Shown piece by piece: positions 8,239-62,687 of a DNA stretch of 64,000 nucleotides (position 1 is its first letter; every line of letters begins with the position of its first letter). Made by a program: the position numbers and the translations under genes. Source of the DNA: Olsenella sp. KGMB02461 (GTDB taxonomy: Bacteria; Actinomycetota; Coriobacteriia; Coriobacteriales; Atopobiaceae); assembly GCF_012584445.1 (NCBI RefSeq), contig NZ_JABAHI010000008.1, positions 620,001-684,000 of the forward strand, written 5' to 3'. The notes under the pieces were generated by a model. It was given only the letters and a program-made list of their open reading frames with translations, made no database searches and was not told the origin of the DNA.

Positions 8239-9750
8239 TTAGCGTTCACCCTTGTCTTTGGAGCCGGGATGCGCGGGTTTCTCGGCAGGAGAATCCTGGG
8301 AGCCCTGAGCCTCTTCCTGAGGATCCTGGGGCTCGTCAGAGGTCTCTTCTTGCCGAGAAGATCGCGCTTCAGGGGCTTGGGAGTCGGAGGAGGACCCAGA
8401 GTGAGCCTTGGGGTGCTCTACAAAAAGGCGCAGCTCCTCGGCCCGCTCGCGCACGATCTCGCCCACCGAGGACTTAGCGGGCTCGCCGCCGGGGGCAGCG
8501 GAGACGTCGCCCTCGTTTTCGTCGGGAATGAGGCGGCTGGTGGTAAAGAAGCTGTCGTCATCGAGGGCGTCGCAGCTGGGGGCGATGGAGCCATCGGCGT
8601 GATGGAAGGGCGTGCCCTGGAAGATGGCGCCGTGGTAAGAGACGATCTGGCGACCGGTGCGGGTCTCGAAGTAATAGATGAACACGCCTTTGATGGCTGC
8701 AGACACCGGGATGGAGATGGCCATTCCCACCGCGCCGCCAAGGGAGGATCCCAGCACGATGGCCAAAAGGCTCATGGCTGGATGCACCTGGACGGCGGAG
8801 CGCATGACTACAGGGCTCACCACGTTGTCGGTGATGTTTTCTGCCACCATAGCCACAATGAGCGTCCAGAACGCGCAGAGGGGGCTCACAAACAGCGCGG
8901 TGACGGTGGCAATGGCAGCGGCGATCCAGGGGCCGATGACCGGCACGAAGTGCAAAAGGCCGGTGAGCGTGCCCATGAGGGGCGCGTAAGGCTGCCCTAC
9001 CACGATGTAGCCCAAGAACGCGAGGCTGCCCCCCACCAGGGAGGTGATCACGATGCCGCGCATGTAGCCGCCCATAGAACGGCTGGCTACCGCCAAGAGC
9101 AGCATGAGGTCGTCTTCGTGCGTGGGGCCTGCCACGACGGCAAACTCGCGTACGATGCGGGGGTAATCCCGGGCCAGCCAGTACGCCAGCACCAACCCTA
9201 GGAAGAACATGAAGAAGGTGTTCACCAGGTTCATGAGGTTGGGGATGAGGCCGGAAGAGATTTGGGAGGCCATGTCGTTGGCAAAGCGGGTGCCCATGGT
9301 GGAAAAGCCATCCACAAGCGCAGAGATGTTGGTTTGGAACTCTGCAGTCTCAGTGGTGCCGTAGCGCTCGAAGAGGCTGCGCAGCCACTCCTGGAGCTCC
9401 CGGAAGTAGCCGGGAATGCGCTGGAACAGAGTGTTGAGCTGCTCTAGGGTAAGGGGTCCCAGTATTGCCAGCACCCCTATGGCCACGCCCAGCACGATGA
9501 GCAGGGCCAAGATGGCGCCTAGCGCGCGACCCACTCCTTTGGTCTCCAGCCAGTTCACAATGGGGCTGCAAATGAAGCCCACGATGATGCCTACGGCCAA
9601 AAACTCGATGGCGGGGGCTATGTAGCCCAACGCCCACACCACGCACACGAAGATGACGATAAAGCCGATGGCCGTCCACACGCGAATCATGCGCAGACGG
9701 TCCTCGGCCGAGATATCCTGGGTTGACTGATGAGCAAACGGACGTGCCAT
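8239..9750 (-). CDS. AI-2E family transporter (PerM-like permease)
   Basis: 503 aa. About eight membrane segments follow a short cytoplasmic N-terminus: IGFIVIFVCVVWALGYI, FLAVGIIVGFICSPIVNWLE, then a long amphipathic stretch (residues 110-160) and the conserved core LTGLLHFVPVIGPWIAAA. This is the AI-2E/PerM superfamily; substrates vary (autoinducer, Na+/H+ exchange) and cannot be told here. The last 60 residues are an acidic Ser/Gln/Glu-rich tail holding two exact copies of the dispersed repeat (8275-8287 and 8351-8359). One is read Ala-Glu-Lys, the other Ser-Arg-Gln. It follows the sigma factor gene by three bases and may belong to the sigma/anti-sigma transcript. Confidence 0.88.
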   Translation of the reverse strand: MARPFAHQSTQDISAEDRLRMIRVWTAIGFIVIFVCVVWALGYIAPAIEFLAVGIIVGFICSPIVNWLETKGVGRALGAILALLIVLGVAIGVLAILGPLTLEQLNTLFQRIPGYFRELQEWLRSLFERYGTTETAEFQTNISALVDGFSTMGTRFANDMASQISSGLIPNLMNLVNTFFMFFLGLVLAYWLARDYPRIVREFAVVAGPTHEDDLMLLLAVASRSMGGYMRGIVITSLVGGSLAFLGYIVVGQPYAPLMGTLTGLLHFVPVIGPWIAAAIATVTALFVSPLCAFWTLIVAMVAENITDNVVSPVVMRSAVQVHPAMSLLAIVLGSSLGGAVGMAISIPVSAAIKGVFIYYFETRTGRQIVSYHGAIFQGTPFHHADGSIAPSCDALDDDSFFTTSRLIPDENEGDVSAAPGGEPAKSSVGEIVRERAEELRLFVEHPKAHSGSSSDSQAPEARSSRQEETSDEPQDPQEEAQGSQDSPAEKPAHPGSKDKGER

Positions 9751-20914: not shown

Positions 20915-20927
20915 GGGTTTCTCGGCA
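20915..20927 (+). repeat. Intergenic 13-mer repeat GGGTTTCTCGGCA
   Basis: An exact copy of the extended repeat in the 246-base gap between the SGNH/ATP-grasp gene and the membrane protein gene, about 170 bases before the former's start and 65 before the latter's. It is not in any credible gene, so protein coding cannot explain its presence. Confidence 0.85.
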
Positions 20928-30219: not shown

Positions 30220-30232
30220 GGGTTTCTCGGCA
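30220..30232 (+). repeat. Intergenic 13-mer repeat GGGTTTCTCGGCA
   Basis: An exact copy 8 bases beyond the stop of the minus-strand lipoprotein gene (30240) and between it and cysK. Its placement directly downstream of a stop codon repeats what is seen at 53120. Confidence 0.85.
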
Positions 30233-30995: not shown

Positions 30996-32039
30996 TTAGG
31001 CCAGCGGCCGCTTAGGCAAAGTTTTTAAATAGTCCTTCACCTCGTCGGATATCTTGTGGCTCTCCCGCGCCTTCTGAATGGCCGCCCGACGAGTCCATTC
31101 ATCGACCGATCCCGATGGATCCAGATACGGAAGCGTCGCTTTTGGCTGTGCCGCCAGCGCCTCTGCCAACAGCCATGCCCGAGCCTTATCCACGTAGTAG
31201 GCCTCCGATCCCGCTTCTGGCGCCTCAGGCGCCCCCGACAACCGCGTCGCTGCCACGTACTCAAGAACCCGCCCGCAAGAGCGCTCGCCCAAAAAGAACC
31301 GCATGAGCACCCTGAGCCCAAAGCGCACCACATAACACCGGTCGCTTGTGCACCAACGAGCGAGCGGCTCTGCCAGCTCCTCCTCATGGCCCGAAAAAGG
31401 CCCCAGCGGAATCTGATCGCACACCGCCCAATTGTCCACGTAGGGCAACAAGCGCTCTATGGCGGTGAGCGCCTCCTCATAGCTGCCGAGAAACCCCACC
31501 GCCAAGGCCTGCACCAGATTCTCCTCAAAGTAAGCATGTGGTAGCTGAGAAAGGAAGCTCTGGGCATCCGTACGTCTCACAAGGCCTTTGGCAATGCGCT
31601 TCAGCTCTGGTGTAGGCACGCCTACAATGGTCGCCGCATCCAGGGTAGGCAAGAGCTTTTGATTAAATGCTTTAAGAGACGGCTTCTGAGCTTGGGCGAG
31701 AGAGCGGGCCACAAACTCTGAAGCAGTGTCCTCTGGGAAGCCGTCCAGTTTGGCTGCCAACACTTCCTCCAACGGCTTGTGGGCAGCCATTGCCAGCAGC
31801 CGATCTTTTTGCGTTCGGGAAAGCTTTTTGAAGTGAGCCTCTGCGCTTAGAGCGCGCCCTTTGGTATAGAAGCGCGCCTGAGCCACCAGGCGCCGAGGCC
31901 TGTGCGCCTGCGTGTAGCGAGCTCCCTGCCCCTTCTTGTGGGCAGCCAGGCGCGCTTCTACGTCCGGCGAGTATCCGGTATAGAGGCTGCCATCCTCGCA
32001 TTCCAGCACGTACATATAGTGGGCGAAAGGCTCTGCCAT
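30996..32039 (-). CDS. GIY-YIG nuclease domain fused to an AlkD-like DNA glycosylase domain
   Basis: 347 aa. Residues 1-85 are a UhpC/YhbQ-type GIY-YIG domain: HYMYVLECEDGSLYTGYS (the YVL...YTGYS pair) and the catalytic region RARFY...EAHFKKLSR. From about residue 110 on, the protein is a HEAT-repeat AlkD/DNA alkylation repair domain, with LPYVDNWAVCDQIPLGPF resembling the Trp/Asp active-site region of that family. The two are normally separate proteins. A joint role, removing an alkylated base and nicking the DNA, is plausible but inferred. The GFLGS segment contains an exact 13-mer repeat (31484-31496), read in yet another frame. Confidence 0.8.
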   Translation of the reverse strand: MAEPFAHYMYVLECEDGSLYTGYSPDVEARLAAHKKGQGARYTQAHRPRRLVAQARFYTKGRALSAEAHFKKLSRTQKDRLLAMAAHKPLEEVLAAKLDGFPEDTASEFVARSLAQAQKPSLKAFNQKLLPTLDAATIVGVPTPELKRIAKGLVRRTDAQSFLSQLPHAYFEENLVQALAVGFLGSYEEALTAIERLLPYVDNWAVCDQIPLGPFSGHEEELAEPLARWCTSDRCYVVRFGLRVLMRFFLGERSCGRVLEYVAATRLSGAPEAPEAGSEAYYVDKARAWLLAEALAAQPKATLPYLDPSGSVDEWTRRAAIQKARESHKISDEVKDYLKTLPKRPLA

Positions 32040-39456: not shown

Positions 39457-40236
39457 ATGCCCTTTGTCTCCCTCATCAAACGCACGCTGCCCGCTGCGCT
39501 GCCGGTGATGTTGGGCTACGTGGTCATTGGCATTCCCGCCGGCATCCTCGAAGCTCAGATGGGCCTCAACGCCCCCATGGCCTTCTTCTTGAGCGCCACC
39601 TACTACTCCGGCGCCGGCCAATTCATGCTGGCAAACATGTGGATTGCAGGCCAAAGCCCCCTCTCCATCGCCCTCTCCATCTCGCTGGTCAACCTGCGCC
39701 AGCTGCTCTATAGCGCCTCGCTGGCTCCGCGCCTGGCCACCACGCCGGCACCTCTCAAAGCCCTCTGCACCGCCACTGTCACCGACGAGTCCTTTGGCGT
39801 CAACACAAGCCGCTTCGCCCAAGATCCCACCTGGTCTGTCGCCGACGCCACCCTCACAAACATCCTCTCCATGCTCGCCTGGGCTTCCGCCAACGCTCTG
39901 GGCGCCATCGCCGGCGACATTCTGCCCATCTCCACCGCCGTGGCCTCCTTCGCCATGACCTCCATCTTCATCTGCCTGTTGCTCACCCAGACCTTCACCA
40001 CCCCTATCCTCCTGGTGGTGACCGTCTCTGCCCTCGTGGTCATTGGTTGCAAACTGGCAGGCCTTGGCTCTATGGCCATTGTCGCCGGAGCCCTCGCGGG
40101 AGTAGCTGCAGGCGTAATCTTCGACATCCATCAAAATCCTTCTGCTGCCGAGAAACCCGCGCCCTCCTACCAGGACGCCAACCATCCTTCGCACACCCCA
40201 GACGCCCCCTCCACTCCCGGAGGTGACCGCCAATGA
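39457..40236 (+). CDS. azlC: Branched-chain amino acid exporter, large subunit
   Basis: 259 aa, membrane protein with about seven helices. LGYVVIGIPAGILEAQMGLN and YYSGAGQFM, followed by NLRQLLYSASLAP, match AzlC. The partner azlD starts within its last codons, so the two form the usual exporter of branched-chain amino acids. After the last helix comes a hydrophilic tail of about 35 residues (SAAEKPAPSYQDANHPSHT) containing an exact 13-mer repeat (40146-40158). Confidence 0.87.
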   Translation: MPFVSLIKRTLPAALPVMLGYVVIGIPAGILEAQMGLNAPMAFFLSATYYSGAGQFMLANMWIAGQSPLSIALSISLVNLRQLLYSASLAPRLATTPAPLKALCTATVTDESFGVNTSRFAQDPTWSVADATLTNILSMLAWASANALGAIAGDILPISTAVASFAMTSIFICLLLTQTFTTPILLVVTVSALVVIGCKLAGLGSMAIVAGALAGVAAGVIFDIHQNPSAAEKPAPSYQDANHPSHTPDAPSTPGGDRQ

Positions 40237-49317: not shown

Positions 49318-49424
49318 GGGACCTCCTGGGAACGCTGGCTGGGAACAGACGGTCTGACAGCGGATACGATCGAGGGTGAGTAAGTCCCTTAAAGTATAGG
49401 GTTCGAGCCGCGTTGGTCTGGTTA

Positions 49425-49465
49425 AAAAGACCATCCCACCCGCCTAAGTGTGGCGAGTGGGATGG
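49425..49465 (-). terminator. Intrinsic terminator of the acyl-CoA operon
   Basis: A stem of about 14 bp (CCATCCCACTCGCC with GGCGGGTGGGATGG read on the minus strand, one T-G pair) and TCTTTTT after it. It lies about 60 bases downstream of the Fe-alcohol dehydrogenase stop. Confidence 0.85.
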
Positions 49466-49523
49466 CTGGGTTTCTTGGCATGGATATGTGCCAAGGGATG
49501 AGATGCGTGGGGAGTGGGAGCGA

Positions 49524-50711
49524 TTAGCGAGCGGACTCCAGGATGGCGACGACGTCGTCGGCGGTGAGGCGGCGGAAGTTGCCCAGGGCGCCTCCGCGGG
49601 CGGCTACGGCGCCTTCGGCCAGCTGGCGCATCTGCTCGGGAGTGGGGTCGACGCCCAGCTCGGAAAGGGAGGTGGGCATGCCGATCTCGTGGCACCAGTT
49701 GTCCCAGGCTTGGATGCCGCGAAGGCCAGTGCGCACAGGATCGTCGAAATCGTTCTCCACACCAAAGACGTTGACGCCAAACTGGGCGAAGCGGTCGGGT
49801 TTGACAGCGAGCACGTACTTGGCCCAGGCGCTCCAGATGGCGGTGAGGCCGGCGCCGTGGGCTACGTCGAACATGGCGCCGATCTCGTGCTCGATGGCGT
49901 GACAGGCGAAGTCGCCCACGTTGCCGGTGCCAGTGAGGCCGTTGTGGGAGAGGGAGCCGGCCCAAAGGAGGTTGGAGCGAGCGGCGTAGTCGTTGGGGTT
50001 CTCGAGTGCCTCCAGCACGGCGGTCTTGACGGTGCGCATGAGGCCCTCGCTCATGGCGTCGATGAGCTCGGTGTGCTCCACGGTGGTGAAGTAGCGCTCC
50101 ATGGTGTGCATCATGATGTCGGCGCCGGGGGCTGCGGTTTGGTAGGCCGGCAGCGAGTAGGTGAGCTCGGGGTTCATGATGGCGAAGAGCGGACGGGCGC
50201 ACTCGTGGTTGTAGGAGCGCTTGAGCATGGGGCCGTCCAAGGTATCGATGTTGATGACCGTGGAGTTGGAGGTCTCGCTGCCGGTGCCGGCCAGGGTGGA
50301 GATGGCTGCCAGGGAGGCGATCTTATCGGTAGTCACCTTGCCTAAGAAGAGATCCTCGAGGTCGAAGTCGTTGGCAAGGCCGTAGGCGATGGCCTTGGAG
50401 GAGTCGATGGCAGAACCGCCGCCAATGGCCAGCACAAAGTCGACGCCCTCCTGTTTGGCCAGCTGGACGCCCTCCTTAACCAGGGAGAGGCGAGGGTTGG
50501 GCACGACGCCGTCCAGCTCCACGTAGGAGAGGCCGGCATCTTTGAGGCCCTGCTCAACACGGTCCAGCAGGCCGGTGGTACGCACGTAGTCGCCGCCCCA
50601 GTGGATAAGGACCTTGGAGCCGCCAAGATCTTTGATGAGGCGGCCGGCCTCACGCTCGGTGTCTTTGCCAAAGACCACTTTGGTGGGAACGAGGAATTCG
50701 AAGTTCACCAT
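49524..50711 (-). CDS. Iron-containing alcohol dehydrogenase (butanol dehydrogenase type)
   Basis: 395 aa. NAD(P) site AIGGGSAIDSSKAI, AGTGSETSNS, and iron ligands in DFACHAIEHEIGAMFDVAHGAGL. The sequence start (FEFLVPTKVVFGKDTE) is that of YqhD/BdhA enzymes, which reduce C3-C4 aldehydes. Last gene of the acyl-CoA operon; GGAGCGCAACTGCC precedes the ATG. Reduction of a four-carbon aldehyde is inferred from the neighbours. Confidence 0.9.
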   Translation of the reverse strand: MVNFEFLVPTKVVFGKDTEREAGRLIKDLGGSKVLIHWGGDYVRTTGLLDRVEQGLKDAGLSYVELDGVVPNPRLSLVKEGVQLAKQEGVDFVLAIGGGSAIDSSKAIAYGLANDFDLEDLFLGKVTTDKIASLAAISTLAGTGSETSNSTVINIDTLDGPMLKRSYNHECARPLFAIMNPELTYSLPAYQTAAPGADIMMHTMERYFTTVEHTELIDAMSEGLMRTVKTAVLEALENPNDYAARSNLLWAGSLSHNGLTGTGNVGDFACHAIEHEIGAMFDVAHGAGLTAIWSAWAKYVLAVKPDRFAQFGVNVFGVENDFDDPVRTGLRGIQAWDNWCHEIGMPTSLSELGVDPTPEQMRQLAEGAVAARGGALGNFRRLTADDVVAILESAR

Positions 50712-50843
50712 GGCAGTTGCGCTCCTTTGGGGTTGAGGTGACAGGTTCCGGAATTGATGGATGGGGCGGATGGTTGCGCAATTGATGCGACAGTGGTGCA
50801 GCGTCGCTAGCGAGCTGACGAGCCGGGCGGTAGCGCGAGGCGG

Positions 50844-52061
50844 CTACTCGGCGGTGAAGTACATGGAGATGCCCTGGCCGCCGCCGATGCACATGGAGAC
50901 CAGAGCGTCGCGCTTCTCGGGGTGGCGCTCTGCCAGTTCATAGGCGCACTTGAGGGCCAAGATGGTGCCAGTGGCTCCAATGGGGTGGCCCAGGGAGATG
51001 CCGCCGCCATAGATGTTGACCTTATCGGCATCCAGGCCCAGATCGCGGCTTACGGCGAAAGCTTGGGAGGCGAAGGCCTCGTTAATCTCCACGAAGTCGA
51101 TGCCTGCCAGGTCCAGGTCCAGCTGCTGGGCCAGCTTCTTGGAGGAGAAGTAGGGCGAGTAGCCCATGAGGGAGGCATCGTAGCCAGCCACCGCATAGCC
51201 ACGGATGGTGACCATTGGAGTGCAGCCCAGCTCAGCGGCCTTGGCGCGGGTCATGAGGACCACGGCGGCTGCGGCGTCGTTGAGCGAGGAGGAGTTGGCG
51301 GCGGTCACGGTTCCTGTGCCGTCGAAGACGAAGCAGGGCTTCAAGCGTGCGAGGCTCTCTGCAGTGACGCCGGCGCGGGGGTTCTCGTCCTTGTCAAAGA
51401 GGGTGACGGCGCCCTTGCGGCCGGGCACCTCGACGGTGACGATCTCTGAGGCAAAGACGTCGTCCTCCAGCGCCTGGCAGGCGCGCTGCTGGCTGCGGGC
51501 GGCGTAAGCGTCCTGGTCCTCGCGGGTGACGTTGAACTTCTTGGCGACGTTCTCGGCCGTGACGCCGTTGTGGGAGTCGTCCAGCGGCCAGGTGAGGATG
51601 TCGATGACGCCGTCCTCGAAGCGCTTGTGGCCCATGCGGGCGCCCCAGCGGGCGTCGGTGACGTAGTAGGGCAACTGGGAGAGGTTCTCGGCGCCGCCGG
51701 CTACCACTACCTGGGACTGGCCGGTCTTGATCTCCATGACGCCCTCGATGATGGACTGAAGGCCGCTGCCGCACTGGCGGTTCACCGAGTAGGCGCAGGT
51801 CCCGCCCGGCAGCCCCGCCTTGAGCGAGATGGCGCGGGCCAAAAAGCCGTTGGGTCCCCAGCCGCCCACGTTGCCAACGACCACCTCGTCTACCAGGGCG
51901 GGGTCGATGCCGGCGCGACGGGTGGCCTCCCCCACTACCAGGGCGCCCAGGTCGATGGCAGAGACGTCCTTGAGAGAGCCGCCAAACTTGGCGATGGGCG
52001 TGCGGGCGCCGGCCACGATCACAATGTCTTGAGGGTCTTTGGGAAACGCGCGGTTGCTCAT
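50844..52061 (-). CDS. Acetyl-CoA C-acetyltransferase (thiolase)
   Basis: 405 aa. The nucleophile cysteine is in NRQCGSGLQSI, the histidine in GGGISLGHPIGATG and the second cysteine in CIGGGQG. Condenses two acetyl-CoA to acetoacetyl-CoA or cleaves it. With the dehydrogenase (52206-53057) it forms the first two steps of a four-carbon CoA pathway. Confidence 0.95.
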   Translation of the reverse strand: MSNRAFPKDPQDIVIVAGARTPIAKFGGSLKDVSAIDLGALVVGEATRRAGIDPALVDEVVVGNVGGWGPNGFLARAISLKAGLPGGTCAYSVNRQCGSGLQSIIEGVMEIKTGQSQVVVAGGAENLSQLPYYVTDARWGARMGHKRFEDGVIDILTWPLDDSHNGVTAENVAKKFNVTREDQDAYAARSQQRACQALEDDVFASEIVTVEVPGRKGAVTLFDKDENPRAGVTAESLARLKPCFVFDGTGTVTAANSSSLNDAAAAVVLMTRAKAAELGCTPMVTIRGYAVAGYDASLMGYSPYFSSKKLAQQLDLDLAGIDFVEINEAFASQAFAVSRDLGLDADKVNIYGGGISLGHPIGATGTILALKCAYELAERHPEKRDALVSMCIGGGQGISMYFTAE

Positions 52062-52205
52062 AAACTATCAATCCTTTTCTTTGAGGGAGCGAAACGGCGG
52101 GAGATGCTGCGGCGTACTACGGCGGGAGAGCATGCAGGTCCGGGAGTTGCCCGGGCAGGCTGCGAGAGTGAGGCCTGTCCGGGCAGGGAGGTAAGGCAGG
52201 AAGAC

Positions 52206-53057
52206 CTACTTGGAGTAGTCATAGAAGCCGCGGCCGGTCTTGCGGCCCAGGCGGCCGGCATCCACCATGGTTTGCAGGATGGGCGCCGGACGGTACTTGG
52301 AGTCGCCAAACTGCTCGTAGAGGCCGCGCATAGTGGCCAGCACCACGTCGATGCCGGTGAAGTCCATGAGCTCGCAGGGACCCATGGGGTGGTTGCAGCC
52401 CAGCTTCATGCCACGGTCTACGTCCTCAGGCTTGACACCCTCCATCACCAGGAAGGCGCCCTCGTTCTCGTAGGGCACGATGAGGCGGTTCACCACAAAG
52501 CCCGGCAGCTCGGGGGCATCGATGGTCTCCTTGCCAATGGCGGCCGCAAAGGCTGCGGCGCGCTCATAGGTCTCATCGGTGGTGGCCAGGCCGCGGATGA
52601 GCTCCACCAGCTTCATCACCGGCGCCGGATAGAAGAAGTGGGCGCCCATGACAGATCCCGGACGGCCGGTGGCCGCGGCGATGGCAGACACCGAGAGTCC
52701 CGAGGTATTGGTAAGCAAGACAGCCTCAGGATCGGCATGTTCATCGATGGTGGCGAAGGTGGACTTCTTGATGTCCAGGCGCTCAGGCACCGCCTCCACT
52801 ACCACACAAGCGCCTGCGATGTCATCAAAGTCAGTGCTGTAGCTCAGGCGGCCGAGAACCGCATTCATCTCGTCCTGGGTCATCTTGCCCTTGGCCACTT
52901 TGCCACCCAGCAGCTTCTCTACCAGGGCGTTAGCCTTGTCTAGAGGCTCCTGCGCAATATCGACGTTCACGGTCTCGAAGCCGCTCTGAGCGCACAGTTG
53001 AGCGATGCCTCCGCCCATGAGTCCCGAGCCGATGACTGCCACTTTGTTCTGGTTCAT
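52206..53057 (-). CDS. 3-hydroxybutyryl-CoA dehydrogenase
   Basis: 283 aa. NAD site VIGSGLMGGGIAQ, NTSGLSVSAIA, catalytic histidine in GAHFFYPAPVMKLVE and the family end GRKTGRGFYDYSK. Length matches Hbd. ATG 53057 follows AGAGGGAAG. The frame extends 27 codons upstream into the repeat hairpin, which is not coding. Confidence 0.95.
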   Translation of the reverse strand: MNQNKVAVIGSGLMGGGIAQLCAQSGFETVNVDIAQEPLDKANALVEKLLGGKVAKGKMTQDEMNAVLGRLSYSTDFDDIAGACVVVEAVPERLDIKKSTFATIDEHADPEAVLLTNTSGLSVSAIAAATGRPGSVMGAHFFYPAPVMKLVELIRGLATTDETYERAAAFAAAIGKETIDAPELPGFVVNRLIVPYENEGAFLVMEGVKPEDVDRGMKLGCNHPMGPCELMDFTGIDVVLATMRGLYEQFGDSKYRPAPILQTMVDAGRLGRKTGRGFYDYSK

Positions 53058-53098
53058 GGTGCACTTCCCTCTCTTAGAAATCTCTCTGGCGGGTGGGT

Positions 53099-53132
53099 GG
53101 GTTTCTCGGCATCCCTTCTTGCCGAGAAACCC
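53099..53132. repeat. Perfect inverted pair of the 13-mer repeat, terminator-like
   Basis: GGGTTTCTCGGCA (53099-53111), an 8-base loop TCCCTTCT, then TGCCGAGAAACCC (53120-53132): a 13-bp perfect hairpin two bases after the CoA-transferase stop (53135, minus strand). It has no T tract. Neisseria and Haemophilus use inverted pairs of their uptake sequences as terminators in just this position. Confidence 0.95.
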
Positions 53133-53134
53133 TT

Positions 53135-54733
53135 TCACTTTCGAGTGGGCTTTGGCCCTAGTTGAATGCCTGCGGGGCCTTGGACGGTAAAGAGGCGGCT
53201 GTCCATCTCTTTGAGCTGCGGGCTTACGAGCGGCGTGAAGTCCATGAGGTCGAGCACCTGGGTTTGAAGGTCGATGCCCGGGGCGATCTCGATGAGCTCC
53301 ACGCCCTCGGGCACCAGGCGAAAGACGGCGCGCTCGGTAACGATGAGGACCTCTTGGCCGCGGCGACGGGCAGCGAGGCCGTTGAAGGAGAGCTGCCCTA
53401 CACGATTCACCATCTTTTTGATGGCGCCCTCTTGCTCGATGGCAAGCTTGCCGTCCTCAAAGGAGTAGCGGCCGCCCTTGGCGGTGAAGGTGCCTAAGAA
53501 GACCACCTTTTTGGCGTTCTGGGTGATGTCGATGAAGCCGCCGGCGCCGGCGCAGCGGTCCCCCATCTTGGTGGAGTTCACGTTGCCCTCGCCGTCCAGC
53601 TCGCCCAGGCCCATGTAGGTGACGTCCACGCCGGCGCCGTCGTAGTAGTCGAACTGGTCGGGGTGCGAGATCATGGCCAGCAGGTTTTGGCCAATGCCAA
53701 AGTCGATGCCGCCCAGCTGCACGCCGCCGTAGATGCCGCTTTCCACGGTGATCATCACGTCGTCGGAGAGGCCCTCCTCGGCAGCTACGCGACCCACCAT
53801 GTCGTTGGGGATGCCAGTGCCCAGGTTCACCACACAACCGGGATAGAGCTCGGCTACGCCACGGCGGGCGATAAGCTTGCGCTCGTTCATGGGGGCAGGC
53901 TCGATAGCCTCTTGAGGCACGCGCTCTTTGCCGCAGAAGGAGCCGTCATAGTAAAAAGACGAGGTCATGCGATGGTCGTTTTCAGGATCTGGGCACACCA
54001 CCACGTCGTCGATGAAGACGCCGGGCACCACCACGTCTTTGGGGTTCAAGGTGCCGGTCTCCACCACCTCGCGTACCTGGGCCACCACCTTGCCTCCCCA
54101 GCGCTTGGTGGCCAGCACCGCAGAGATGACCTCCAATTTCATGGCCTCGTCGGTGGTGGTGAGGTTTCCCTGAGTGTCTGCCTGGGTGCCGCGGATGAGA
54201 CACCAGTCCAGCGGGATGGCCTTGTAGAACAGATACTCGCGCCCGCCATATTCCATGACGTCGATGATGTCTTCCAACTCCCGGGTGCGCTCGTTCATCT
54301 TGCCGCCCTCGATGCGGGGGTCCACAAAGGTGCCCAGACCCACCGTGCTCATTTTGCCGGGAAGGCCGCAGGCCATGGAGCGGTAGAGCTGGGCCATTTG
54401 GCCCTGAGGCAGGCAGTAGGCCTCCACCTGATTGTTGGCGATGAGCTCCATCCAGCGAGGCTGCAGTCCCCAGTGGGCGCCAATGATGCGACGCACCATG
54501 CCCTCGTGAGCCAAATGCTGGATGCCGCGCTGGCGGTCTGACTGGCCACAGGAGTGCACCAAGGTGAGGTCGCGGGGGTGCCCGGTCTCCAAGAAGCGCT
54601 GCTCCAAGGCCTTGAGGTTGGACTCTGAGGCGGACACCAACGTCATGCCAACGGTGCAGAGGGTTTGCCCGTCTTGGATTTGAGCCATGGCCTCTTGGGG
54701 CGTCACGAAGCGTGCATCAAGAGCGTGCGCCAT
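53135..54733 (-). CDS. Acyl-CoA:acetate/3-ketoacid CoA transferase
   Basis: 532 aa, fused alpha and beta parts as in propionate and acetoacetate CoA transferases. The catalytic glutamate is in VESGIYGGVQLGG; GTGIPNDMV and GSFCGKER are other family blocks. It moves CoA between an acyl-CoA and a free acid. It overlaps the upstream CoA ligase gene by 17 bases, so the two are coupled. Confidence 0.9.
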   Translation of the reverse strand: MAHALDARFVTPQEAMAQIQDGQTLCTVGMTLVSASESNLKALEQRFLETGHPRDLTLVHSCGQSDRQRGIQHLAHEGMVRRIIGAHWGLQPRWMELIANNQVEAYCLPQGQMAQLYRSMACGLPGKMSTVGLGTFVDPRIEGGKMNERTRELEDIIDVMEYGGREYLFYKAIPLDWCLIRGTQADTQGNLTTTDEAMKLEVISAVLATKRWGGKVVAQVREVVETGTLNPKDVVVPGVFIDDVVVCPDPENDHRMTSSFYYDGSFCGKERVPQEAIEPAPMNERKLIARRGVAELYPGCVVNLGTGIPNDMVGRVAAEEGLSDDVMITVESGIYGGVQLGGIDFGIGQNLLAMISHPDQFDYYDGAGVDVTYMGLGELDGEGNVNSTKMGDRCAGAGGFIDITQNAKKVVFLGTFTAKGGRYSFEDGKLAIEQEGAIKKMVNRVGQLSFNGLAARRRGQEVLIVTERAVFRLVPEGVELIEIAPGIDLQTQVLDLMDFTPLVSPQLKEMDSRLFTVQGPAGIQLGPKPTRK

Positions 54734-56315
54734 GAAGGATCGTCCTTTCTTCTTGAGAGGTGAGCACCGCGCGGCTTACGGCGGCACGATCGGGCTTGGA
54801 AGCAGGGGTAAGGGGAAGCTCGTCTACAAAAATCACGTGCTCCGGCACTTCGAAGGAGGCGATGCGCCGCTTGAGCTGCAGTTTTATCTCGTCCTCGGTA
54901 AGGGCGGAGCCCGGACGGGTCACTACCGCCGCCACCGGCACTTCGCCGTAATCCTCATGGGGAATGCGGCTCACACAGCTTGCCACCACGCCGTCGACGC
55001 CAGCCAGATGCTCTTCGAGCGAGGAGCACCACACTTTCTCGCCTCCGCGGTTGATCATGTCTTTGATACGGTCCACGATCCACACTAGGCCGTCTTCCAC
55101 ACGGGCCACATCCCCCGTGCCCAGCCAGCCACCAGGCTTCAAGGCAGTGGTGGGACGGCGGTAATAGCCGCGGGTCACATTGGTGCCGCGCACCCATAGC
55201 TCACCCAAGGCGCCGTTGGGCACCTCGTTGCCCTGCTCATCCACCACCTTGCAGTCCATGCCGGGAAACGGCAGGCCAGTGGCTAGAGGATTCGCAGAGC
55301 TGGGAGTGTCTCCCGGGAACAGCAAGGCGGGGCTGGCGGTCTCGGTAAGGCCATAGACCACCCGATACTCCGCCTGAGGCGCCCAGGAGTGCCATTGGGA
55401 AAGCGTGGAGAGCGTCTCTTTGGAAGAGCCCGACAAGATCAGGCGCAAAGACGGCAGAAAGGGATGGGCTTCTCGGCAGGAAAGCATCCGGGCAAAGGCT
55501 GTAGGAGCCCCATGAAGGTAGGTGATGGACTCCGATTCCACAGCGGCGACGGCGTGCTCGGGGTCAAAGCGGCTGTGGATGTGCATAGTGGCGCCCACAT
55601 AGACAAACTGGGCCATCAGGGCCACGAGGCCGGTGACGTAGTAGATGGGCAGGCAGATGAGGCAGGAGTCGGCAGGGGTGGTGCCGCACAGGCGCGCATA
55701 GGCGATGGCAGCGTGGACCACATTCTCGTTGGTGAGCTCCACGGCCTTGGCGGCAGAGGTGGTGCCCGAGGTAAACATCATCAGCGCCACGCTCTGACTC
55801 TGGCCTTGGGGCGCCAGGGCCACCGGAGCCTCAGGGGCGCTCAGAAGCGTCTGGGTCTCGATGATGCGGCTGGCTTCCACCGGCAAGATGGGTTTCCAGG
55901 GGTCGAATTCCGGGTCTGCCGCCACATGGGTGACGTCTGCGGCAAAGAGCAGGGTCACCGCCTCGTCACGGCGGCACTTGGTGGGCACGGCCACCGCGGC
56001 GGCCCCCAGCTTGTTGGCAGCATAGACCGCCACCACGTAGGCGACGCCAGCATGCAACAGCAGCGCCACGCGATCGCCCTCACCCACAGCCGCCACGTTC
56101 TTGAGGTAGGCGGCGGCGTTGTCCACCAGCTCCAGCAGCTCGCGGTAGGTCACCCGGTTGCCGGCGTCGTCAGCCACCGCCAGGTGGTCTGGACGCACAG
56201 CAGCCGTGCTCGACAGCTGGTGATAGAGACTCTGGCTCGCGTCTTGGAAGCGGCGCAGGCCGTCTGCGCCTCTCACCATGTCCTCAATGCCCCAGCAAGC
56301 CTCACCGGAAAGCAT
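54717..56315 (-). CDS. AMP-forming acyl-CoA synthetase (fatty-acid-CoA ligase type)
   Basis: 532 aa. The ANL motifs: MMFTSGTTSAAKAVELTNEN (the usual TSGTTGxPKG loop is TSGTTSAAKA), YGLTETASPALLF, WLGTGDVARVEDG, RIKDMINRGGEKVW and the late catalytic lysine in TPASKPDRAAV. Activates a free acid with ATP and CoA. First gene of the operon; GGAGG precedes ATG 56315. An exact repeat copy (55470-55478) is read as Cys-Arg-Glu. Confidence 0.9.
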   Translation of the reverse strand: MLSGEACWGIEDMVRGADGLRRFQDASQSLYHQLSSTAAVRPDHLAVADDAGNRVTYRELLELVDNAAAYLKNVAAVGEGDRVALLLHAGVAYVVAVYAANKLGAAAVAVPTKCRRDEAVTLLFAADVTHVAADPEFDPWKPILPVEASRIIETQTLLSAPEAPVALAPQGQSQSVALMMFTSGTTSAAKAVELTNENVVHAAIAYARLCGTTPADSCLICLPIYYVTGLVALMAQFVYVGATMHIHSRFDPEHAVAAVESESITYLHGAPTAFARMLSCREAHPFLPSLRLILSGSSKETLSTLSQWHSWAPQAEYRVVYGLTETASPALLFPGDTPSSANPLATGLPFPGMDCKVVDEQGNEVPNGALGELWVRGTNVTRGYYRRPTTALKPGGWLGTGDVARVEDGLVWIVDRIKDMINRGGEKVWCSSLEEHLAGVDGVVASCVSRIPHEDYGEVPVAAVVTRPGSALTEDEIKLQLKRRIASFEVPEHVIFVDELPLTPASKPDRAAVSRAVLTSQEERTILHGARS

Positions 56316-56318
56316 TGC

Positions 56319-57539
56319 CTACACCTCCTTGTCCAGCCGCGACTGCAACCTGCCGCCCAACGCCACCAGCCCAAAGAGCCTCTTGGCTGCCTGGGTAAAC
56401 GTGCGCTCGCTTTGGGCCAGCGCCTCATCAAGACTCATAACATCACCCACACAGGGCACCACTGCGTCGATGCCGGCAATGGCAGGCGCCTCGATAGCTG
56501 CACCGCCCACAATGGCCACACAGGGCACCTGCAGCCTTTGGCACACCGCTCCAATGCCTGCACACACCTTGCCGTGGGAGGTTTGGGCATCCAGATGGCC
56601 CTCGCCGGTGACCACCAGGTCTGCCTGTGCGGCCAACCCCTCAAAGCCGATAAGAGCCAGCACCTGGTCGATGCCGCTCACCAGCTGTGCCCCAAGGCCT
56701 GCCATGCAGCCAAAGGCCAGGCCGCCGGCAGCTCCTGCACCCGGGAGGCCTTGGACACGGCGACCCGTAGCTTCCTCCAGCTTGGCCGCATAGTGGGCCA
56801 TGCCGCGCTCCAAATCCTCCACCTGCGCAAGAGTGGCTCCCTTCTGGGGGCTAAACACCCGAGCGCAGCCCTCAGGCCCCAGTAGCGGGTTATCCACATC
56901 GCAGAGCACTTTGATATCCACCTGCCACAGGCGCGGGTCCAAACCAGAGAGATCCACCGTCTCCACCTGTTCCAAAGACGCGCCGCATCCAGGAAGGAGA
57001 GCGCCGTCCTTATCGGCAAAAGCGGCGCCCAAAGCGCTCAAGAGCCCCATGCCGCCGTCGTTGGTAGCCGAGCCGCCCACCGCCAAAGTGATGGAGGTGG
57101 CCCCGGCGTCCAGTGCGGCCAAGATGAGCTGGCCTGTGCCGTAGGTGGTGGCCGCCAGGACGTTTTTCTCCCCTTCTACCAGCGGCAACCCTGAGGCCGC
57201 CGCCATCTCGATGACAGCTTCTAGGGGTGAAGAGGCTGCGGGAGCATCCTGAGCTGGCAGGGCGCCCTGGGCAGATTCCGCCGGATGCACCAGGCCAAAG
57301 GAGGCCTGTACGGGAGAGCCCAGAGGGCCTGTGACCTCTACGAACTCCCGGCAGCCTGACAAAGCCTCCACCAGGGCCTCCACAGTGCCCTCGCCGCCGT
57401 CTGCCACAGGCAGACGCAGGCAGGTGCAACCAGGGAACTGCGCCTGGGCGGCCTGAGTCAAAAGCTCGGCCACCCGAGCAGACGAGAGCGTGCCCTTGAA
57501 GGAGTCCGAGCACAGCAGGAGCACCGGCGGCCTAGTCAA
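56319..57539 (-). CDS. Glycerate kinase (GlxK/GarK type)
   Basis: 406 aa. The family start LLLCSDSFKGTLSSARVAELL and the motifs VADGGEGTVEALV, VGGSATNDGGMGLLSALGA, GAAGGLAFG and VTGEGHLDAQTSHGKV are clear. Phosphorylates D-glycerate. The open frame begins with TTG 57539, overlapping the aldolase stop by eight bases; another start cannot be excluded. It belongs to the sugar locus, suggesting glycerate arises from that substrate. Confidence 0.9.
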   Translation of the reverse strand: MTRPPVLLLCSDSFKGTLSSARVAELLTQAAQAQFPGCTCLRLPVADGGEGTVEALVEALSGCREFVEVTGPLGSPVQASFGLVHPAESAQGALPAQDAPAASSPLEAVIEMAAASGLPLVEGEKNVLAATTYGTGQLILAALDAGATSITLAVGGSATNDGGMGLLSALGAAFADKDGALLPGCGASLEQVETVDLSGLDPRLWQVDIKVLCDVDNPLLGPEGCARVFSPQKGATLAQVEDLERGMAHYAAKLEEATGRRVQGLPGAGAAGGLAFGCMAGLGAQLVSGIDQVLALIGFEGLAAQADLVVTGEGHLDAQTSHGKVCAGIGAVCQRLQVPCVAIVGGAAIEAPAIAGIDAVVPCVGDVMSLDEALAQSERTFTQAAKRLFGLVALGGRLQSRLDKEV

Positions 57540-61382: not shown

Positions 61383-62687
61383 ATGCTCGCCCTGCGTCTT
61401 TCCAATCCCCGACGTGCCCTGCTCTCCATCACTACCCTTCTGCTCTTTTGTCTGGGGCTCATCTATGCCTACTCGGTGGTGCTGGCGCCCCAAAAGGAAC
61501 TCTGGGGCTGGTCGGTATCCCAAATGACGCTGGTGTTTGCCCTCTCAATCACGGTATTCACACTGGGGGGTCTTCTAGGGGCGCGCCTCAACAGCGCTCT
61601 GGGATCTAGAAATTCCCTGCTCATCGCCGGCGTTCTTGTGGCTGCCGGCTTCTGGGGCTGCTCGGTGGCAGACGGCGCCTCCGCCTTTTTCACCACCTGC
61701 CTATGCTATTGCGTCATTGGCGGCGCTGGCATTGGCATCGCCTACGACGTGCTCCTCCCCGCCATCACCCGCTGGTTTCCCGACCACACCGGCCTTGCCC
61801 AAGGCATCGGCCTCATGGGCTTTGGCATGGGCGGATTTGTCATGGGCCCTGCCCTGGCTGCCTGCTACAGCATCGCCTCTTGGCGGCTGGTGCTCCAGCT
61901 CCTGGGAATTGCCTTTTTGGGGCTGTTGATCTTCTCGGCATTTTTCGTTGCCGAGAAACGCTCCCCTTCCTTTCGCCTCTCTGAGGGCGCTTGCGATTCG
62001 CAACCATCAGAGCCCCAGGCTGCTGGAACCCGCGAAGCCGCTGCTCAGAAGAGGCCGCTCGCAGCCTTGCTGGCAGACAGGCGTTTCAAGCTGCTGTATC
62101 TGTGGCTGTTCACCATTTGTGGGACAGGCATGGGAATCTCTGGATTGGGACGCGAGCTGCCTTTGTCGCTGGGAGCCGACGCCATGGCCGCGGCAGTGAT
62201 CATTGGATTTGTGAGCGTGGGCTCGGGCCTGGGCCGCTTTGCCGGTGGCTTTTTTGCCGACAAGTTTGGGGCGCCGGTGACCATTAGGGCGACTTCAATG
62301 GGTATGGTGGCCGCCCAGGGACTCATGCTGCTGTCTATGGTCTTCCAGAGCCTGCTCATCCAAACCGTCGCGTTGCTTGGCTGCGGATTTTGCTGGGGCG
62401 TTGCGGTGATCATGATGACCTATGTGTGCTCGGAGACCTGGGGAGCCCAGGCCATGTCTCGCAACCTGGCAGTAGTCAACACCAACAGCATCTTCTCTTC
62501 GCTGGTGGGCAGCTGTGGCGGCGGGCTTTTAGCCCAGGCCTTTGGAACCCAGGCAGCCCTAGGCGCGTTGCTGGGCTTCGCCATTGTGGCCACGGCGCTC
62601 TCGGGCGTTTTAGGACGAGCCGTCGCCTCCGCCAAGAGCGCCGCGCAAGCCGTCGCCCCTCTACCAGATCAGCCTCAGGCCGCCTAG
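61383..62687 (+). CDS. MFS transporter (oxalate/formate antiporter-like)
   Basis: 434 aa, 12 helices. WGWSVSQMTLVFALSI, GARLNSALGSRNSLLIAG (the loop 2-3 motif), LPAITRWFPDHTGLAQGIGLMGFGMGG and a central loop of about 60 residues. The pattern is that of the OFA branch. ATG 61383 follows AAGGAACC. The end of helix 6 contains an inverted pair of the repeat (61932-61957) encoding FSAFFVAEKR. Confidence 0.85.
   Translation: MLALRLSNPRRALLSITTLLLFCLGLIYAYSVVLAPQKELWGWSVSQMTLVFALSITVFTLGGLLGARLNSALGSRNSLLIAGVLVAAGFWGCSVADGASAFFTTCLCYCVIGGAGIGIAYDVLLPAITRWFPDHTGLAQGIGLMGFGMGGFVMGPALAACYSIASWRLVLQLLGIAFLGLLIFSAFFVAEKRSPSFRLSEGACDSQPSEPQAAGTREAAAQKRPLAALLADRRFKLLYLWLFTICGTGMGISGLGRELPLSLGADAMAAAVIIGFVSVGSGLGRFAGGFFADKFGAPVTIRATSMGMVAAQGLMLLSMVFQSLLIQTVALLGCGFCWGVAVIMMTYVCSETWGAQAMSRNLAVVNTNSIFSSLVGSCGGGLLAQAFGTQAALGALLGFAIVATALSGVLGRAVASAKSAAQAVAPLPDQPQAA
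61932..61957. repeat. Inverted pair of the 9-mer repeat inside a coding region
   Basis: TTCTCGGCA (61932-61940), an 8-base spacer TTTTTCGT, then TGCCGAGAA (61949-61957). Same spacer length as the pair at 53099-53132. It lies in the MFS gene just where helix 6 meets the central loop, so it can have no terminator purpose for that gene. Confidence 0.95.

Follow-up and report, generated by a model that had tools for sequence, protein, structure and literature searches.

The window analysed here, a stretch of 64,000 nt from Olsenella sp. KGMB02461 (genome G000), carries on its minus strand a run of acyl-CoA genes (window 49321-56355) in which a ligase, a CoA-transferase, a dehydrogenase and a thiolase follow one another. 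Between the second and the third of these the minus-strand order is the CoA-transferase TGA, 2 nt, an inverted repeat, 41 nt and the dehydrogenase ATG. The repeat takes up 34 bases and reads, on the plus strand at 53099-53132, GGGTTTCTCGGCA TCCCTTCT TGCCGAGAAACCC, that is, two perfect 13-base arms around an 8-base loop. The sequence-only reading of this DNA had described perfect 13-bp arms, 8 bases apart, after the CoA-transferase stop, and the letters bear this out. The features of the locus are as follows.

54717-56315, minus strand: acyl-CoA ligase gene (PF00501), upstream in the same run
53135-54733, minus strand: CoA-transferase gene (PF01144; FadX-like), stop TGA at 53135-53137
53120-53132, minus strand: word copy 2, GGGTTTCTCGGCA on the minus strand, the exact complement of copy 1
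53112-53119, no strand: 8-nt loop TCCCTTCT, a loop length common to three further pairs in the genome
53099-53111, plus strand: word copy 1, GGGTTTCTCGGCA, with a G-rich 5' flank GGCGGGTGGGT at 53088-53098
53099-53132, minus strand: RNA hairpin in the sense transcript, 13 bp, -25 kcal/mol, without a U-tract, tail ACCCACCCACCCGCC
53099-53142, plus strand: terminator-like site on the antisense strand, the stem followed by TTTCACTTTC
52206-53057, minus strand: 3-hydroxybutyryl-CoA dehydrogenase gene (PF02737 and PF00725), start ATG at 53057
50844-52061, minus strand: thiolase gene, downstream in the same run

The predicted fold of the sense RNA (z -5.5) was matched in stability by 0 of 200 shuffles. 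An Rfam search of the window gave no match, and a scan for the full paired word found no other record in a sequence collection that possibly leaves out the organism's own and nearby genomes.

A word repeated through the genome

Each arm of the hairpin is one copy of a word that the sequence-only reading had called new, and the word is indeed repeated in this genome: GGGTTTCTCGGCA occurs exactly 162 times in 2.19 Mb (84 forward, 78 reverse), and the reversed-pattern control once. The window holds 23 matches, exact or with up to two mismatches, where 2.3 are expected, and both hairpin arms are exact. Single copies and a second pair in the window lie at these positions.

8275-8287, plus strand: single exact word copy
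20915-20927, plus strand: single exact word copy
30220-30232, plus strand: single exact word copy
31484-31496, minus strand: single exact word copy
40146-40158, minus strand: single exact word copy
61932-61957, no strand: second convergent pair, TTCTCGGCA-8-TGCCGAGAA, inside a predicted gene

Within a 464-kb sample the 9-mer TTCTCGGCA was found 174 times against 13 expected under an order-4 Markov model, and it tops the over-represented words there, a CRISPR repeat aside. (The CRISPR array itself, at about 1034-1037 kb of G000:C12 (L058), has at least 39 repeats of GTCGCTCCCCTCACGGGGAGCGTGGGTTGAAAC.) Alignment of the G000 copies shows a G at -4 in 93%, a pyrimidine at -1 and the core TTCTCGGCA, with weaker purine-rich segments at -12 to -8 and +9 to +15. 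Most copies are single and non-palindromic, and the sequence they share ends within about 25 bp. Full 13-mers in the sample are intergenic in 23 of 42 cases (55%), compared with about 24% for random positions scored with identical gene calls, which come from our simple gene caller (about 75% coding, also the source of the gene positions given above) and inflate intergenic fractions. Copies inside genes favour one orientation and frame, T GCC GAG AAR, read mostly as Ala-Glu-Lys. A second spelling, TTATCGGCA, is over-represented as well (39 against 3.5 in the window plus L041-L060) and parallels a TTCTCG/TTATCG alternation in genome G011.

Comparison with the sister species G001, 92.8% identical across 335 kb of alignable sequence, indicates that the word is held in place. 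Of 41 intergenic copies of TTCTCGGCA 37 are intact there, as are 72 of 82 in coding sequence, whereas about 60% of other 9-mers are; by our arithmetic the chance of such intactness is roughly 2e-5 and 1e-7, respectively. Identity between the two species approaches 1.00 in the motif columns only, including -4 and, between genes, -2; position -1 and the columns beyond the motif are at the local background, about 0.85-0.9. Low-GC blocks missing from the sister hold 3 words in about 55 kb, against about 20 expected from the aligned density. Scarcity in foreign DNA is a hallmark of uptake words. The acyl-CoA run is also missing from the sister, and its word density is normal, so its genes look native rather than recently foreign.

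Word pairs, homologous junctions and termination

We counted as a convergent pair TTCTCGGCA followed after 2-30 bases by TGCCGAGAA. G000 has 10 such pairs, G001 has 6 and G026, a member of another family in the same order, has 10, with about 2 expected in each. For G000 the expected number at up to 30 bases is 2.2 (P about 1e-4), so the pairing there is not due to chance, and 4 of the G000 pairs have exactly 8 bases between the words, where 0.08 are expected. Divergent pairs number 6 in G000, 7 in G001 and 49 in G026 (about 2 expected in G026). Complementarity in the convergent pairs reaches past the word, over 59 bases against 29.5 in shuffles, a value attained in 0 of 5000 shuffles, and the pairs are therefore shaped as hairpins. 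The G026 pairs, 35 of the 36 examined being divergent, include none in coding sequence; they lie mainly between convergent genes, 0-150 nt past stops, and where both neighbours are known 20 of 32 are in such gaps, which make up about 29% of all gaps. Also in G026, a 43-bp class of divergent pairs has the inner sequence GCGCTTTTGACCTGCGCG in common (e.g. C33:78, C46:4150 and C65:20597) and is dispersed as repeat elements are, often away from gene ends.

These pairs bear on the alternative that the structure at 53099-53132 is an ordinary terminator or attenuator of the acyl-CoA operon, lowering expression of the dehydrogenase and the genes beyond, as the sequence-only reading had proposed. The position is suggestive, since a stable GC-rich hairpin just past a stop is what an intrinsic (rho-independent) terminator has, and both the all-intergenic placement of the G026 pairs and the complementarity of pair arms past the word speak for the same alternative. 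However, the sense strand has no U-tract directly past the stem. Its tail there, ACCCACCC, is C-rich and complements the G-rich flank of the plus-strand word; it is because this flank complement occupies the U-tract position that the sense strand forms no complete intrinsic terminator. The earlier remark that a T tract is missing is thus correct for the sense strand and fails for the plus strand, where TTTCACTTTC follows the stem and which alone gives a terminator score. Most other pairs of the two species are likewise without U-tracts, and only 2 of 13 post-gene tails in G000 and G001 have at least 4 T in 8.

Homologous junctions give a second line of evidence. Besides the window's own we found eleven, 9 of which can be read as a CoA-transferase followed by a dehydrogenase. 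The closest, in G022, has a CoA-transferase 84% identical to that of the window and a spacer of 78 nt (77 in the window), but the hairpin is absent. In G017, from another genus, a REP-like palindrome stands directly past the CoA-transferase stop, which speaks for the terminator or attenuator alternative, and G183 has a different GC-rich hairpin; the remaining readable junctions show no structure of comparable strength. A conserved regulatory hairpin at this junction is ruled out, most homologous junctions having none. The presence of hairpins at some junctions and their absence from most imply that a strong structure is tolerated there and recurs, but is not required. The G017 palindrome, TTGACAAAGGGACAGTCCCTTTGTCAA, lies at L062 1356-1382 (G017 C1:431 kb), and its core is present in 24 copies.

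Taken with the absence of the locus from the sister species, the tail sequence, the 2 of 13 tails and the bare G022 junction argue against a terminator or attenuator tuned for the acyl-CoA operon. A conventional operon terminator on the sense strand is not supported, and we regard the operon-specific alternative as a whole as unlikely. We conclude that the hairpin is mainly a by-product of two adjoining words. It probably has a mild post-transcriptional effect, and attenuation by a hairpin without a tail is possible.

Dialects in the Coriobacteriales and the uptake-word reading

A survey of 40 relatives found the exact 13-mer in large numbers in just two places, this genus (154 copies in the sister species) and G026 (112), and close to none in most other genomes. 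Related words were sought in 20-odd relatives, in samples that are small (about 20-95 kb per genome, and some 460 kb for the sister). Within these, several Coriobacteriales genera share the form G-N-N-Y-TTCTCG followed by a genus-specific 3' end (GCA, GAA, CCA or CC): GGGCTTCTCGGCA(T) in G026, GGGTTTCTCGGAA in G270, GGGTTTCTCGCCA in G100, CTTCTCGCCA in G015 and CTTCTCGCC in G004 and G017, with variants also in the sampled stretches of G011 and G310. In all eight tabulated dialect sets position -4 is G in 77-100% of the copies, with mostly a pyrimidine at -1. Of the intergenic TTCTCG sites in word-bearing genomes, 64% follow this G-4/Y-1 rule, compared with 8% for control columns and 35% where no word was detected; among the latter genomes G006, G018 and G185 may have a weak form. 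The purine flanks at -12 to -8 are specific to this genus and were not seen in the other dialects. In G310 (L097-L098) a palindrome, GTGTACAC, was seen 14 times in 40 kb, against 0.4 expected.

What has been observed for the word, then, is its abundance, unbiased use of both strands, intergenic enrichment, conservation of its sites, dialects that keep a fixed core, and near-absence from low-GC islands. DNA uptake words are known from two Gram-negative families, the Neisseriaceae and the Pasteurellaceae, and most of the hallmarks that we tested are documented for their DUS and USS (PMC3630211, PMC2346458, PMC1939737, PMC12616744), with DUS accumulating in the core genome (PMC3630211). The word has the corresponding properties: dispersed over-representation, no replichore orientation bias, an intergenic excess with a minority of inverted pairs, scarcity in foreign DNA and, from samples of 20-460 kb for each genome, lineage dialects with an invariant core. 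We therefore favour, with a probability of roughly 0.6, the reading that the hairpin consists of two inverted copies of a non-palindromic word interspersed in the genome, G-N-N-Y-TTCTCGGCA, which would work like a DNA uptake word. Each copy would mark the DNA of the lineage, would be recognised, as we infer, by a competence machine, and would persist at its site through selection or through biased uptake together with recombination. Two facing copies right past a stop would fold the intercistronic leader into a strong RNA hairpin, and this would most likely act, if at all, after the stop, through 3'-end protection or partial attenuation between cistrons.

The closest parallel is the Neisserial DUS (GCCGTCTGAA), which resembles the word in its hundreds of copies on both strands and in its genus dialects around a short invariant core (PMC3630211; PMC12616744). 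Inverted pairs are a further likeness: in Neisseria such DUS pairs serve as terminators, according to PMC12616744, citing Ambur 2007, and the G026 pairs between convergent genes have that arrangement. The analogy with paired uptake words of Neisseria and Haemophilus, both naturally transformable, drawn in the sequence-only reading thus survives as regards a genome-wide word, its uptake-like behaviour in sequence tests and the placement of G026 pairs past stops, and is not borne out as regards an operon terminator. Unlike DUS, the word has an unrelated sequence, belongs to an actinobacterial order, the Coriobacteriales, and is known from sequence alone. The Pasteurellacean USS, with a 9-nt core and AT-rich segments one to two helical turns off, is similar in having, beside a core of 9-10 nt, segments with a weak bias in composition at a distance of about one helical turn, and in its many genic copies of one favoured orientation against an unbiased chromosome-wide orientation (PMC2346458, PMC1939737, PMC12616744); it differs in its core and phylum, and the flanks of our word are purine- or G-rich, on both sides of the core and in this genus only.

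Of the remaining alternatives, the stronger is that the word is no uptake signal and serves as a binding site for a protein of chromosome organisation, recombination or repair, in the manner of Chi, KOPS or the sites of nucleoid proteins. Its conservation is equal within and outside genes, as a DNA-level signal predicts, and the spacings favoured by the pairs would suit dimers of a binding site. A polar motif of the Chi or KOPS type is ruled out, since on the sister's complete chromosome the word shows no strand bias relative to replication at any placement of the origin (maximum 0.597, p 0.16). The scarcity in islands and the genus dialects on a fixed core suit uptake words better, and we consider a binding site unlikely. 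Less credible still is a mobile palindrome (REP- or MITE-like) or codon-usage artefact, for although most coding copies encode Ala-Glu-Lys in one frame and the G026 43-bp class with its common inner sequence is repeat-like, copies are mostly single and non-palindromic with nothing in common beyond about 25 bp, and the G-N-N-Y rule also governs the copies between genes, which are in excess (64% against 8% in control columns). REP elements proper share with our pairs the form of dispersed palindromes just past stops, one of them at the homologous G017 junction; they differ in their palindromic unit, whereas the word is a single non-palindromic repeat unit and its palindromes are a small minority.

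The competence genes of G000 count for the uptake-word reading by their presence, but they single out no receptor, ComP-like or other. The gene immediately preceding comEC is comEA-like, judged by its translation, and the ComEA-ComEC operon is intact; the genome also encodes an operon of GspF, small membrane proteins and PilT. ComEC is present in all of 25 genomes tested, those with the word and those lacking it, and PilT was rejected as a marker of a receptor system, its presence being uncorrelated with the word. The word is therefore not yet tied to the machine at the genetic level, and for this reason we describe the word as working like an uptake word and do not assign it as one. In named Coriobacteriales loci retrieved through their pilus ATPase the word was absent, and a literature search, which reached few subscription journals, returned nothing relevant on uptake words, uptake, transformation or competence in Coriobacteriia.

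More broadly, we would give about even odds that several Coriobacteriales genera have their own system of DNA-uptake words, with the dialects G-N-N-Y-TTCTCG-(GCA/GAA/CCA/CC), independent of those of the Neisseriaceae and Pasteurellaceae, and that its inverted pairs, the window's included, may be reused as gene-end hairpins. If true, this would be a third, unrelated case of uptake words with dialects, in gut actinobacteria, and DNA self-marking would have evolved again outside the two Gram-negative families. It would also suggest that natural transformation takes place in bacteria for which it is not known, and offer a handle on gene exchange in gut Coriobacteriia.

The GspF-like/PilT operon of G000 is compact (L288 10502-14647; G000 C4:156-161 kb) and consists of genes for a GspF-like protein, four small proteins and a PilT-family ATPase. 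The four small proteins each have an N-terminal hydrophobic stretch, and one is a DUF4860 protein; the operon possibly encodes a minimal pilus.
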